DNA from: Pontibacter ummariensis
GTDB taxonomy: Bacteria > Bacteroidota > Bacteroidia > Cytophagales > Hymenobacteraceae
Assembly: GCF_900188175.1 (NCBI RefSeq)
Contig: NZ_FZOQ01000002.1
Span: 124,001 to 188,000, forward strand
Length of the DNA stretch: 64,000 nt
Direction of reading: 5' to 3'
The notes below the pieces were generated by a model. The model did no database searches and was not told the origin of the DNA. It worked only from the letters and a program-made list of their open reading frames with translations. Both the position numbers and the translations under genes were made by a program. This document shows, in pieces, positions 59,447-64,000 of the stretch. Within the stretch, counting starts at the first letter, position 1. Each line of letters starts with the position of its first letter.

Positions 59447-59758
59447 TTTGATTTACCTTCGTGTTATCTAAACAAAGTAAAACAACGAAATTAGCCTGCA
59501 TAGGTACAGGCTGGTTACACGCACATGAGCAACCTGGTAAATGTGTACGCTTTACGCTGCGTATTAAGTTGTCCTTGGCAAAAGCCCGTGAAAGGAAAAC
59601 GAGCAAAGGGGCTATCCCTCGCTACCCGTTTTTTTAACCCGATTGCTACGTTTTCTGCTGGTTTTTATATCTTCATGCAGCAAGGCACAATCTTTGAGCA
59701 GCCTTGCCTGCATCACAAGTTAAAATATTTAATTTTTAGCATATACACTAACAGAATC
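59447..59758. other. Divergent intergenic region between dnaJ-like gene and glutamine cyclotransferase
   Basis: This 312-bp stretch has no supported gene. It includes the promoters of both divergent genes. TAATTTTT at 59730-59737 is one base away from a TAnnTTTG box and lies 21 nt before the GTG start of the right-hand gene. An upstream open frame in the same phase has no lipoprotein character and is not used. Confidence 0.55.
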
Positions 59759-60583
59759 GTGAACAAAAATAAGCTTATTGCAGCCCTACTGGCCTTTGGC
59801 CTGCTGACGGCCTGCAGTAACGAAAAACAGAATGAGGTTGCGGTGGCGCATGCTACAGAAAGTGCTCCTGCCACCATCAACTACGGTGTGGTGAACACCT
59901 ACCCGCATGATATCACTGCTTTTACAGAAGGCTTTCTGTTTCGCAACGGGCAGCTTTATGAAAGTACCGGCTCTCCTTCTGATCTCCCCCAAACGAGATC
60001 TTTGGTGGGCGTGGTGGACCTGAGCACCGGTGAGCTGGAGGAGAAAGTAGAACTGGACCGTAACAAGTACTTCGGCGAGGGAATCGTTTTCCTGAACGAT
60101 AAGCTGTATCAGCTCACGTACGTGAGCAAAAAAGGCTTTGTGTACGATGCGAATACGTTTGAAAAACTGGAGGAGTTCACCTTCCCTAGCAAAGAGGGCT
60201 GGGGCATGACAACAGACAGCACCTACCTGATCATGAGCGATGGGACCAACCAACTCACCTACCTCGACCCGAGTACTTTTGAAGCAGTAAGAACGGTGAG
60301 CGTAAAGGATCACAAAGGCGCTGTCAGAAACCTGAACGAGCTGGAGTACATTAACGGCTACATCTACGCTAACATATACACGACAAGCGATATCGTGAAG
60401 ATAGACCCCGAGACCGGCAAGGTAGTAGGCCGTTTGGATCTTTCCTCCCTGGAGCATGATGCCCTTAGCAAGAACCCGAATGCCTTAGAGCTGAACGGAA
60501 TCGCTTACAATCCGGAAAACAAGAATGTGTATGTAACCGGCAAGCTGTGGCCGAACATTTACGAGATAAAGTTCAATTATTGA
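59759..60583 (+). CDS. Glutaminyl-peptide cyclotransferase lipoprotein
   Basis: This 274-residue protein starts at GTG 59759, since this gives a lipoprotein signal (MNKNKLIAALLAFGLLTAC, Cys19). It belongs to the plant/bacterial-type glutamine cyclotransferase family (PF05096), a five-bladed beta-propeller that cyclises N-terminal glutamine to pyroglutamate on peptides. Typical stretches are YPHDITAFTEGFLFRNGQLYESTG, GEGIVFLNDKLYQLTY, KEGWGMTTDSTYLIMSDGT, LNELEYINGYIYANIY and ALELNGIAYNPENKNVYVTGKLWPNIYEI. It sits in the periplasm or at the membrane, anchored by lipid. A strong terminator follows. Confidence 0.93.
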   Translation: MNKNKLIAALLAFGLLTACSNEKQNEVAVAHATESAPATINYGVVNTYPHDITAFTEGFLFRNGQLYESTGSPSDLPQTRSLVGVVDLSTGELEEKVELDRNKYFGEGIVFLNDKLYQLTYVSKKGFVYDANTFEKLEEFTFPSKEGWGMTTDSTYLIMSDGTNQLTYLDPSTFEAVRTVSVKDHKGAVRNLNELEYINGYIYANIYTTSDIVKIDPETGKVVGRLDLSSLEHDALSKNPNALELNGIAYNPENKNVYVTGKLWPNIYEIKFNY

Positions 60584-60656: not shown

Positions 60657-61274
60657 TTAAATGGTGTCTGTTACAACAAGCAGGGCATAAATAATACCTG
60701 GTATGTAGAACAGCAGGGTCAGGATCACGCTGATCCAGAAAGAACTGCCGATACCCTCATGCAAGAAAACAGCGAGCGGCGGTAACAGGACCGCTAAAAT
60801 GATCTCAACAATGGAAGTTCTGGAACCGCCCTGCCGCATGACTTCTTTCAGATCGCGCTTCAGCTCCTTTTTCTCGGCTTTTGTCATGTTTTTCAGCCTT
60901 TCCTTGGCCATGGCTAAGGCCTCTGCCTCCGCTACAGACATTTCTCTTTTCTCTACAGAAAGGTTTTCTTCCAGCACCGGCTCCTTTACAATCGCTGTCG
61001 TTTTGCGGGGTACTAGCGCCGGGGCAGCGCTTGCTTCCATAACTGGTTCAGCATGCTGCGTAGTGGCTTTGTTTTCTTCCGCTTCTACTATCGCCTTTGC
61101 CACCATGGGGGCAGGTTTTATTTCCGCTGTGGCAGGGGCAGCCTTCTTCTTGACTGTGTTATAGGCTTCCGGTTTATTAGGGGCAAACTCATAGTATTTA
61201 GCTGAGCTACAGGCAAACATCATCTGTCCCAACACCAGCACGGCAACTAAATGAAGTAAATTTTTAAGTTTCAT
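60657..61274 (-). CDS. Lipoprotein with C-terminal Pmp3/YqaE membrane domain
   Basis: This 205-residue protein begins with a lipoprotein signal (LLHLVAVLVLGQMMFAC, Cys22). A middle Ala/Lys/Glu-rich stretch (about 40-150) follows, with a helical segment MAKERLKNMTKAEKKELKRDLKEVMRQ. It ends in two TM helices (about 154-205) that match the Pmp3/YqaE family (UPF0057): IVEIILAVLLPPLAVFLHEGIGSSFW, then LTLLFYIPGIIYALLVV. YqaE proteins are normally only about 50 residues and are linked to salt stress and membrane potential. Here one is joined to an envelope lipoprotein of unknown role. The reading is clear; the function is an inference. Confidence 0.88.
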   Translation of the reverse strand: MKLKNLLHLVAVLVLGQMMFACSSAKYYEFAPNKPEAYNTVKKKAAPATAEIKPAPMVAKAIVEAEENKATTQHAEPVMEASAAPALVPRKTTAIVKEPVLEENLSVEKREMSVAEAEALAMAKERLKNMTKAEKKELKRDLKEVMRQGGSRTSIVEIILAVLLPPLAVFLHEGIGSSFWISVILTLLFYIPGIIYALLVVTDTI

Positions 61275-61446: not shown

Positions 61447-62160
61447 CTACTGTTCCCCGCTTTTAAAAGAAGCAAGGGTTTTGCTTAAGCTTTCTCTGAT
61501 CGCCCCTCGCACCCTTGCCCATGCGCCCCTATCCCCTAAGGGGTACTTTTGGTTTACCTCCAACTCCACGCCCGCATACTGCCCTTCCGTAAACTTACGG
61601 CGCAGATAAGTCGGAAAACCATCGGCAATGCCTAAGTAAGGGTAGTTAAACCGTACCTGCAGGCTTGCCTCTTCTTGCTGTAGCTGTTTTTTCCATGCGC
61701 GGCAAAAAGACTGTTCGAGCGTTCGTTTAGGATCATACAACAAACCTATGTCGGTCTGCCGCTCCGCTCCCTCCAGCACCGGCGTGAAAGTATGAACCGA
61801 AAGATGCAGTACCTGCCTACCAGCCATCACAAAGTCATGGATCAGATGCTCAACCTGGTCCCGGTACGGAAAATAATAGGTCTGTACTATATGCTTTTGC
61901 TCGTTCTGAGGGAGCTCCCTGGTAACTGCAGAAAAAAGGTGCCTGTGGTGCGGCGAACGGTTTAATTCTACCAGCAGGCGGGTCGTCTCCGCGTAAAAGC
62001 TTTTGTTGCCCAAGGTTTTGAGGTCCTGAAAGAGCTCCAGTGCACCGATGTCATAGCCTCTATGCGAGCCAAGAAGGTCCTGACGGTCCTGGAACAAGCC
62101 GGCATAGGCGTCCGGCACCTGGTTCCCACCATGCTCGCACGTAATAATGACTCTCAGCAT
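61447..62160 (-). CDS. N-formylglutamate amidohydrolase-like hydrolase
   Basis: This 237-residue protein starts at ATG 62160, 4 nt after the stop of the upstream GCS2 gene. The FGase (PF05013) pattern is clear: VIITCEHGGNQVPDAYAG (about 4-21), SHRGYDIGALELFQDL, TRLLVELNRSPHHRHLFS, VLHLSVHTFTPVLEG and RQTDIGLLYDPKR. The His/Glu/Asp residues are the likely Zn ligands. Classical FGases (HutG) cleave N-formylglutamate in histidine degradation. No hut gene is near, and the context with two amide ligases suggests that the substrate is a different glutamate conjugate. Confidence 0.9.
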   Translation of the reverse strand: MLRVIITCEHGGNQVPDAYAGLFQDRQDLLGSHRGYDIGALELFQDLKTLGNKSFYAETTRLLVELNRSPHHRHLFSAVTRELPQNEQKHIVQTYYFPYRDQVEHLIHDFVMAGRQVLHLSVHTFTPVLEGAERQTDIGLLYDPKRTLEQSFCRAWKKQLQQEEASLQVRFNYPYLGIADGFPTYLRRKFTEGQYAGVELEVNQKYPLGDRGAWARVRGAIRESLSKTLASFKSGEQ

Positions 62161-62164
62161 GGTC

Positions 62165-63418
62165 TCAATGAGATTTATTGGGGAGGAAAACATCACCGTT
62201 TTGCAGGCAAGTGGCCAGTTGCTGGTATACCTGCCTTATTTGCTCTGCAGAAGGTTGATCGCCCGTGGCCTGCCGTATGCGCCGTGATAAGTTGCCCCGG
62301 GAAAGGATGACGTTCAAGGCATAGGACACCTCATCCTCGTCCACTACTACTACCTCCTGCGTTAAGTGCTTCCATAGTTCCCCCACGGTGCAGCTCCCGG
62401 AAATATGGTAGCCAAAACATTGCAGATATTCCTTGTCTCTTATCATAGCCTCTTCCCCATTTCGTATCACCTCCAGTAACATATCAGCCAGCCGGTTTTC
62501 GTCCCATGCTTTGAGCTTGTCTAAGTTTACCCACCGCTCCCCTACCAGCGCCTCTATAGCCCCTAGCACGGCCTGCAATACAGCTATGTCTGCCACCGGG
62601 CTTTCCTGAATATCGATGAGCCGAATTTCTATGGTGTGGCGGCTAAAGCGCGCGATGGCCCCACGGGAATTTACAAACTCTTCCTGCAGCTCACCTTCCT
62701 TATCGTAGGGTGCCAGATCCGCGTATATTTTCTGCAGAATCATTTGTTCATAGTCCTGCTGCGTGAATACTGCCTCCGGAATTACCTTACCTGCTATAGA
62801 GGGTATTTTGTCTTGATTATGGCGGTATACCTCCAGCCGGGTATCATTCAGGCCGCTGACTTTCCCATCCAAAATAGGCGACGAGGCACTGAGTGCGGGG
62901 ATAATCGGCAAGACCATGCGCACTGCGGCATGCAGCTTTCCAAACTCCTCGTCGTTTGCGAAAGGCAGGTTCAGGTGGTTGCTCTGCAGGTTCGCCCAGC
63001 CATGGCCACGGCAATCGAAAATACGGTTATAGGCTTCGTAAACGGTGTTGTACTCGTGCGGCCAAAGCCTGGTGTCGGTATAGGGGTTCATGAGCGGGTG
63101 CGCCCCGGAGGGCAGTAGCATGGCGTCATACTTCTTCAGCATCGCGTTTATCTTTTGCACGTGCTGCTGAAACTTCTGATGCAGCCCATCCAGGCGCTTT
63201 GCGGGTCCTTGTGTTTTCAGTTCGACCACATGCAGTACCAGTTCGTTGCTCCACGCGATGTCCCCGAATTCCACGTCCGATATGTACTTGCCTACCGCAT
63301 CATAAATCAGCTTGTCGGTAATCGGCATCACCTGCAGGGTATCCCGCTGCACAATCATATACTCCAGCTCCACACCGAAGCCCTCAAAGAGATGCAGCAC
63401 TTGTTTTTCGCTACTCAT
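62165..63418 (-). CDS. GCS2-family carboxylate-amine ligase
   Basis: This 417-residue protein is of the glutamate-cysteine ligase family 2 (PF04107, YbdK-like). The opening FGVELEYMIVQRDTLQVMPI with E-L-E-Y is the metal/ATP-binding glutamate motif. LQSNHLNLPFANDEEFGKLHAAVRMVLPIIPALSASSPILDGKVSGLNDTRLEVYR and SRHTIEIRLIDIQESPVADIAVLQAVLGAIEAL are characteristic. Such enzymes join a carboxylate to an amine using ATP. E. coli YbdK has only weak gamma-glutamylcysteine synthesis. The start overlaps the end of the RimK-like gene by 8 nt, and the hydrolase gene follows 4 nt later. Confidence 0.92.
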   Translation of the reverse strand: MSSEKQVLHLFEGFGVELEYMIVQRDTLQVMPITDKLIYDAVGKYISDVEFGDIAWSNELVLHVVELKTQGPAKRLDGLHQKFQQHVQKINAMLKKYDAMLLPSGAHPLMNPYTDTRLWPHEYNTVYEAYNRIFDCRGHGWANLQSNHLNLPFANDEEFGKLHAAVRMVLPIIPALSASSPILDGKVSGLNDTRLEVYRHNQDKIPSIAGKVIPEAVFTQQDYEQMILQKIYADLAPYDKEGELQEEFVNSRGAIARFSRHTIEIRLIDIQESPVADIAVLQAVLGAIEALVGERWVNLDKLKAWDENRLADMLLEVIRNGEEAMIRDKEYLQCFGYHISGSCTVGELWKHLTQEVVVVDEDEVSYALNVILSRGNLSRRIRQATGDQPSAEQIRQVYQQLATCLQNGDVFLPNKSH

Positions 63419-64000
63419 TTACTCTACCGTTCTTATGATTGTCTATACGCTGTTTGATTGATTTTATCACGGTGGCGTACAACTCCCTCTTGAGCACTTT
63501 GTCCTCACAGCCCGCCTCTATGCTGGGGTTGTCGTTTACCTCAATCACGTAGGCCTTCCCGTCTATCTCTTTCAGGTCCACTCCATACAGGCCATTCCCG
63601 ATTAAGTTAGCTGCTTTCAGGGCGGTATGCAATACCGTAAACGGGACTTGCTCAAAAGGCACTGTTTCCACGTCCCCGGCCGTGTCCTGTTTCTTGCCCT
63701 CCCAGTTGTAGATCTGCCAGTGCCCCTTGGCCATGTAATATTTACAGGCATAGAGCGGCTGCTTGTCGAGCACCCCGATGCGCCAGTCAAAGTCTGTCGG
63801 GGAGAACTCCTGCCCAATGATAAGCTCTGAGTCCGCCAGCATCTTATCCAGTTCCTCTTTCAGGCTCTCGCGGCACTTCGCCTTCACCACCCCCTGCGAG
63901 AAAGAGCTATCTGGCTTCTTCAGCACGCATGGGAGCCCCAGCACTTCCTCCACTTCCTTCCGGTTGTCTTTATGGATGATCATCGTTTTCGGAATGGGTA
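63411..64000 (-). CDS. RimK-type ATP-grasp ligase (5' part cut off by window edge)
   Basis: The frame is open through the right edge (IPKTMIIHKDN continues upstream of the ATG at 63983), so the start lies outside; about 195 residues are visible. The ATP-grasp fold is plain: PCVLKKPDSSFSQGVVKAK (Lys contacts to ATP), ELIIGQEFSPTDFDWRIGVLD (the E-x-F hinge) and GVDLKEIDGKAYVIEVNDNPSIEAG (Mg-binding Glu and Asn). It is the RimK type, which ligates amino acids, often glutamate, to a carboxyl group. The 3' end overlaps the GCS2 gene by 8 nt, so the genes are translationally coupled. The acceptor is unknown. Confidence 0.9.
   Translation of the reverse strand, partial: PIPKTMIIHKDNRKEVEEVLGLPCVLKKPDSSFSQGVVKAKCRESLKEELDKMLADSELIIGQEFSPTDFDWRIGVLDKQPLYACKYYMAKGHWQIYNWEGKKQDTAGDVETVPFEQVPFTVLHTALKAANLIGNGLYGVDLKEIDGKAYVIEVNDNPSIEAGCEDKVLKRELYATVIKSIKQRIDNHKNGRVNE

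Follow-up and report, generated by a model that had tools for sequence, protein, structure and literature searches.

A conserved operon pairing an RLAN-type ATP-grasp ligase with a GCS2 ligase in Pontibacter ummariensis

Here, we describe an operon of Pontibacter ummariensis that lies across the right edge of a 64,000-nucleotide (nt) stretch of its DNA (the window; positions are counted from its first letter). The window spans C41:124001-188000, and the genome amounts to 5.97 Mb on 80 contigs. The operon consists of four genes, which encode, in order, a C39-like cysteine peptidase (C39), a ligase with an N-terminal RLAN domain and a RimK-like ATP-grasp domain (RLAN-ligase), a carboxylate-amine ligase of the glutamate-cysteine ligase family 2 (GCS2) and a zinc amidohydrolase of the N-formylglutamate amidohydrolase fold (FGase). 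The operon is conserved and its genes are coupled. Its inseparable core is the pair of RLAN-ligase and GCS2, the former lying directly upstream of the latter on the same strand in all 81 loci compared. We put the probability that the operon builds a small, peptide-like metabolite at about 40%; we only infer what the substrates are, which way each step runs and that the product is a small molecule as opposed to a protein tag.

Genes and predicted enzymes of the operon

61447..62160, minus strand: FGase-fold zinc amidohydrolase, 237 amino acids (aa) from the ATG at 62160; Pfam PF05013
62196, minus strand: GTG start of the longest open reading frame (ORF) of the FGase gene, by ORF reading
62161..62164, minus strand: 4-nt gap from the GCS2 stop to the FGase ATG
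62165..63418, minus strand: GCS2 carboxylate-amine ligase, 417 aa; Pfam PF04107
63411..63418, minus strand: 8-nt overlap of the RLAN-ligase end and the GCS2 start
63411..64000, minus strand: C-terminal part of the RLAN and RimK-like ATP-grasp ligase, cut by the window edge
to position 64880, minus strand: complete RLAN-ligase gene, 489 aa; RLAN PF14401 and RimK PF08443
64883-65605, minus strand: C39-like cysteine peptidase, 240 aa, outside the window; Peptidase_C39_2

A first-pass annotation of the window had described three leftward genes at its right edge (RimK-like ligase, GCS2 and FGase) with an 8-nt overlap and a 4-nt gap. This layout was confirmed, and every family scored above its Pfam cut-off. 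The annotation also considered that further members might lie past the window edge, and when the sequence was read beyond it the C39 gene was indeed found, ending 2 nt before the start of the RLAN-ligase. The overlap suggests that RLAN-ligase and GCS2 are translationally coupled.

The part of the ligase inside the window matched the RimK family at 36.9 bits (cut-off 21), and the full 489-aa protein matched RLAN (PF14401) at 166.3 bits (cut-off 25) and RimK (PF08443) at 45.3 bits (cut-off 21), which places it in the RLAN ATP-grasp family. Both matches recurred in 32 of 32 aligned relatives (E ≤ 0.001), among which K321, R367, D435, E447 and N449 were invariant. GCS2 scored 103 bits against PF04107 (cut-off 21), and residues G15, E17 and E19 of its GxExE motif were invariant in 32 aligned sequences. 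Its predicted structure (predicted local distance difference test, pLDDT, 93.5) matched the YbdK structures 1tt4 and 1r8g with Z scores of 36.6 (345 residues, 2.8 Å) and 36.5 and the plant glutamate-cysteine ligase (GCL) 2gwc with a Z of 34.0, far above the Pup ligase and depupylase (Z ~19) and glutamine synthetase (Z ~14). A sequence search of the PDB with a 14-row GCS2 profile returned YbdK at an E value of 0.0079, and one with a 32-row profile returned nothing at E ≤ 0.01. The window GCS2 has the fold and the conserved motif of the YbdK/GCS2 family, from which it differs in its 15-16% identity in the structural matches and in falling short of the NCBIfam cut-offs.

The FGase scored 87.9 bits against PF05013 (cut-off 28.9), and its profile matched the solved structure 2odf with an E value of 2e-32. 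Residues E21, H22, H45, D49, R73, N79, R80, H135 and E213 (numbered from the GTG start) were invariant in 23 aligned sequences, and the zinc-binding ones are presumably among them. Judged by family match and conserved residues, the protein appears related to the N-formylglutamate deformylase HutG. A second, distant FGase is encoded in the same genome (L192), and the subfamily profile did not pick it up. At one locus, from an Ignavibacteriales bin (L164:7218-8480), the FGase carries an extra C-terminal region of ~190 aa that looks, by eye, like an HD phosphohydrolase.

The C39 protein matched Peptidase_C39_2 at 30.7 bits, with Q9, C15, H174 and D192 invariant in 27 aligned sequences. We take the invariant residues of all four enzymes to have catalytic roles, on the strength of family knowledge. 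The C39 model (pLDDT 90.5) matched bacteriocin leader peptidases with a Z of 15.5 (the top score, tied with others) over ~136 residues, the phytochelatin synthase acyl-enzyme 2bu3 with a Z of 14.9 over 156 residues (156-160 for the phytochelatin synthase matches), and the isopeptidase PeiR with a Z of 14.4. Because these structural matches are nearly tied, fold alone cannot separate a peptidase from a transpeptidase. DUF3335 gave no match in the window C39 at E ≤ 0.001; it matched weakly in 3 of its 27 relatives (best 2.2e-4) and strongly in fusions of a GNAT domain with C39.

Conservation of the core and exchange of GCS2 with GNAT

A scan of genome contigs yielded at least 551 confirmed GCS2 relatives, of which the best 80 were used; together with one Legionella record they make up the 81 loci, all found through GCS2. 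RLAN-ligase and GCS2 were separated by no more than 30 nt in 78 of these loci and overlapped in 46 (start codons were assigned by script). FGase was present in 67 loci, within 30 nt of GCS2 in 64 of them and at 95, 738 and 1878 nt in the others, and C39 was present in 49. The surroundings of the cassette otherwise varied between loci (gene maps of L111-L177). Chance neighbourhood of the two ligases is ruled out by their constant adjacency, which, with the tight spacing, bears out the earlier view that the genes act as a unit.

Some absences may reflect the ends of records. At L107, L116, L158 and L167 the record ends too near upstream to judge C39; when read across its circular start, L107 has dapF rather than C39 immediately ahead of the ligase. 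Among the 14 loci without FGase, the records of L160 and L188 stop too near GCS2 for a verdict, and those of L150 and L189 extend only 600-700 nt beyond it. Even so, these 14 loci, and the lack of an FGase relative in each of nine FGase-less genomes searched whole, contradict the first-pass picture of FGase as a fixed member of a trio.

Most of the 81 loci belong to Bacteroidota. One or a few each are labelled Acidobacteriota, Desulfobulbaceae, Desulfobacteraceae, Planctomycetota, Gammaproteobacteria, Oligoflexus, Spirochaetes or Ignavibacteriales. Each of these is a metagenome bin, and its label may be erroneous. The Legionella record, from a named strain, is the firmest case outside Bacteroidota. 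One bin labelled Rickettsiales (L146) has the same cassette and neighbours as a Marinoscillum locus (L144), and its label is probably wrong. The nearest of the named loci is that of Rufibacter roseus (Hymenobacteraceae), with a ligase identity of 77%. Within Pontibacter, 34 of 36 other genomes searched carry GCS2, and one genome lacks GCS2 and retains of RLAN only a short fragment, interrupted by six stops, near a contig end (G033:C22:304-480, locus L100), which reflects either decay or an assembly break. A plasmid search for RLAN gave 45 records, 11 with at least 80% query coverage; those below this value, among the matches listed, were partial and RimK-like. Distances between the partner proteins were correlated (r 0.65 to 0.80; 0 of 500 permutations), which is weak evidence, because vertical descent alone would give the same.

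When loci were collected through RLAN instead, a second arrangement appeared. In a phylum sample of 395 genomes, 44 carried RLAN, and in 43 of these, the genome of P. ummariensis included, it scored above the cut-off. Of the 43 loci we inspected 37, of which 30 came from the search and 7 were fetched by position (left out were G231, G258, G354, G355, G429 and G527). The former held 26 with GCS2 and 4 with GNAT, the latter 3 and 4, so that 29 loci had GCS2 without GNAT, 8 had GNAT without GCS2, and none had both or neither. The first-pass annotation had proposed a comparison of neighbourhoods in other genomes, and both collections show the genes to be together rather than rarely so. Pfam confirmed all eight GNAT domains, of which seven are fused to RLAN and one, in L099, to C39. 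Pooling gave 122 RLAN loci, 114 with GCS2 and 8 with GNAT, a set that is enriched in GCS2 by design and counts some genomes twice (e.g., L089 and L122). Conversely, Pfam found a fused GNAT in none of 32 RLAN-ligases and none of 27 C39 proteins of GCS2 loci, and no GNAT of the RLAN type lies within 2.6 kb of the window locus; separate neighbouring GNAT genes were sought with a seven-seed model, which distant ones would escape.

GNAT-type loci such as L081, L099 and L109, with GNAT-RLAN fusions or GNAT-C39 and RLAN pairs, have a homologous RLAN-ligase, beside a GNAT-C39 fusion in L109 and L099. Unlike the window, they contain a GNAT domain, while GCS2 and FGase are missing from their vicinity. 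Since GNAT and GCS2 would both put a group on an amine, the exchange suggests interchangeable caps. A joining of GNAT to an ATP-grasp ligase is also seen in N-acetylglutaminylglutamine synthetase (TIGR03103), a model matched only weakly by the GNAT-C39 (38.1 bits) and ATP-grasp (19.7 bits) proteins of L099, against 569 bits, and not listed for the window ligase.

Part of this organization appears to have been foreseen. RLAN is a named Pfam family (PF14401), whose entry lists as its neighbours GCS2, M20 peptidases and papain-like proteins fused to GNAT, and Iyer and co-workers reportedly predicted the RLAN/GCS2 link in 2009, with the same neighbours. Such systems share with the window an RLAN-RimK-like ATP-grasp fusion, an upstream papain- or C39-like peptidase and a neighbouring GCS2; they differ in that GNAT is fused to the papain-like peptidase, whereas the window C39 is without GNAT, and in that FGase is a frequent partner of the window-type cassette. 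We know of no mention of FGase among the listed partners of RLAN systems. The cassette is accordingly a variant of these predicted systems. The present analysis adds the constancy of the RLAN-ligase and GCS2 core, FGase as a partner and the replacement of GCS2 by GNAT. The earlier description of the trio as a candidate for an undescribed system holds insofar as the open-licence PMC literature (titles, starts of abstracts and term counts) yielded no experimental work on, or product of, such a cassette, and no mention of PF14401 or "RLAN domain"; it does not hold for the family itself or for the GCS2 neighbour. The work by Iyer et al. (2009) stands in the reference list of PMC4431377.

Proposed pathway and competing explanations

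We propose that GCS2 would convert a carboxylate, most probably that at the gamma position of glutamate, into an acyl phosphate and then couple it to an amine, which would thereby be capped. The RLAN-type ATP-grasp enzyme could then attach an amino acid through a further amide bond, and the C39-like enzyme and the zinc amidohydrolase may remove or transfer the cap or recycle the product. Extended to all RLAN loci, this would be a widespread pathway of amide metabolites in several phyla, in which RLAN-ligases act on an amine capped with a gamma-glutamyl group (by GCS2) or an acetyl group (by GNAT), and FGase and C39 remove or transfer the cap. The extended scheme is tentative, and we regard it as rather unlikely in its entirety. 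If it is true, metabolism would here employ the logic of protecting groups in a new way. The adjacency of two ATP-dependent makers of amide bonds at every locus, across many lineages, implies a product needed by many bacteria, and the exchange of GCS2 with GNAT offers a concrete, testable idea of the chemistry of the first step.

Several results weigh against a small, peptide-like metabolite built in this way. GCS2 scored 51 bits against the NCBIfam YbdK model TIGR02050 (cut-off 176.4) and 30 bits against the gshA-type model TIGR02048 (cut-off 249.05), and all seven NCBIfam models that it matched remained below cut-off; because the subfamily lies so far under these thresholds, the gamma-glutamyl step is an assumption. 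No C39 relative was found elsewhere in four C39-less GCS2 genomes searched whole, nor an FGase relative in the nine FGase-less ones mentioned above, with profiles that detect the cassette subfamilies only, so that an unrelated substitute is possible. Since whole genomes keep the core without them, C39 and FGase are not obligate everywhere unless replaced. In addition, a GNAT-nitrilase fusion gene lies beside the cassette or one gene from it, together with GCS2, in L141, L151, L166 (L166:2918-4444) and L173, which come from Olleya, a Bacteroidia bin, a Flavobacteriaceae strain and Ulvibacter and all lack C39. These genes form one cluster, of which one member was checked by Pfam, and as they were missed by the GNAT model, the mutual exclusion of GCS2 and GNAT is limited to the RLAN-type GNAT; the fusion is possibly a replacement for C39. 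Finally, similarity of a predicted fold is no proof of function, and a protein may possibly be the substrate of the cassette.

The last point leads to the strongest competitor, an explanation that we consider unlikely but serious, namely protein modification, in which the RLAN-ligase would attach amino acids to a protein, much as RimK acts on ribosomal protein S6, and C39 and FGase would take them off. The ATP-grasp half is RimK-like, and the solved structures closest to it in sequence are those of glutamate ligases (e.g., 7qyr, 3vpd and 4iwx). Moreover, there is an operon of parallel logic elsewhere in this genome (G000:C59 near 201 kb; L193:667-3007), with a RimB-like Zn_protease, a true RimK (S6 ligase) and an AstE/AspA deacylase. 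However, the window ligase has the RLAN domain in place of the N-terminal domain of RimK and reached only 36.8 bits against the S6-ligase model PRK10446 (cut-off 331), which a separate gene elsewhere in the genome passes with 393 bits. Modification of S6 is therefore not a good explanation of the cassette. Characterised members of the GCS2 family work on amino acids, and no gene for a target protein generally accompanies the cassette in the maps of L111-L177.

A different thiol or metal-binding peptide, similar to phytochelatin and with C39 acting as a transpeptidase, seems improbable. The C39 model does align over more residues with phytochelatin synthase, an enzyme that transfers gamma-glutamylcysteine, than with leader peptidases at a similar Z score, and its fold resembles that of the phytochelatin synthase Alr0975, with which it shares a putative Cys-His-Asp triad. 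It differs from Alr0975 in lacking a sequence-family match: the phytochelatin synthase family was absent from the Pfam matches of the window C39 and its 27 relatives (E ≤ 0.001), and C39 is dispensable in several lineages.

Ordinary glutathione synthesis, with GCS2 making gamma-glutamylcysteine and the ATP-grasp enzyme serving as glutathione synthetase, would account for the two folds, the order of the chemistry and the match of GCS2 to plant GCL, and we nevertheless judge it very improbable. The genome encodes BshC (423 bits), from which the thiol is predicted to be bacillithiol, and its sole match to GshB-type glutathione synthetase (PF02955, the one type searched for) is the S6 ligase RimK, in line with the first-pass annotation, which saw no glutathione genes nearby. 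The RLAN-ligase scored 27.9 bits against a glutathione synthetase model with a cut-off of 408, and the NCBIfam failures of GCS2 point the same way.

Least credible of all is a graspetide-like ribosomally synthesized and post-translationally modified peptide, with the ATP-grasp enzyme crosslinking a ribosomal precursor and C39 cutting its leader. Leader peptidases do share the top rank among the structural matches of C39. However, the four C39-less genomes searched whole retain both ligases, and no cross-lineage cluster emerged among 844 same-strand small ORFs around the 81 loci, a search that covers linked ORFs and would not reach unlinked or fast-evolving precursors. The largest cluster of small ORFs spanned 12 loci labelled Cyclobacteriaceae, Flammeovirgaceae, Cytophagales or simply Bacteroidetes/Chryseolinea.

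Neighbouring genes in Pontibacter

Within the genus, the cassette is continued by a PMP3-domain gene (window 60657-61274), the product of which has, by eye, a lipoprotein-like N-terminus. RLAN-ligase, GCS2, FGase and this gene stand in constant order in 29 Pontibacter loci and in the locus described here, so that the PMP3-domain gene follows FGase in 30 of 30 loci examined; it had no match in the 81 named loci. A scan for promoters and terminators gave no excess over shuffled sequences. A glutamine cyclotransferase-type protein (PF05096, 285.6 bits) is encoded near the cassette on the opposite strand (window 59525-60583). Just upstream, beyond the window edge, lies an apparent arginine operon (L002:6603-15277, equal to window 66603-75277) that is read the same way as the cassette and includes a proC-like gene; a divergent gene for a four-helix-bundle sensor (4HB_MCP) separates the two. 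Pfam covered the argH-like, argE-like and sensor genes only, and the remaining names were given by eye. A functional link to arginine was rejected, because argH and argE were seen only in loci of the same genus (L002, L095-L097, L102 and L106) and not in the 81 named loci, and the position of the arginine operon next to the cassette is probably incidental.

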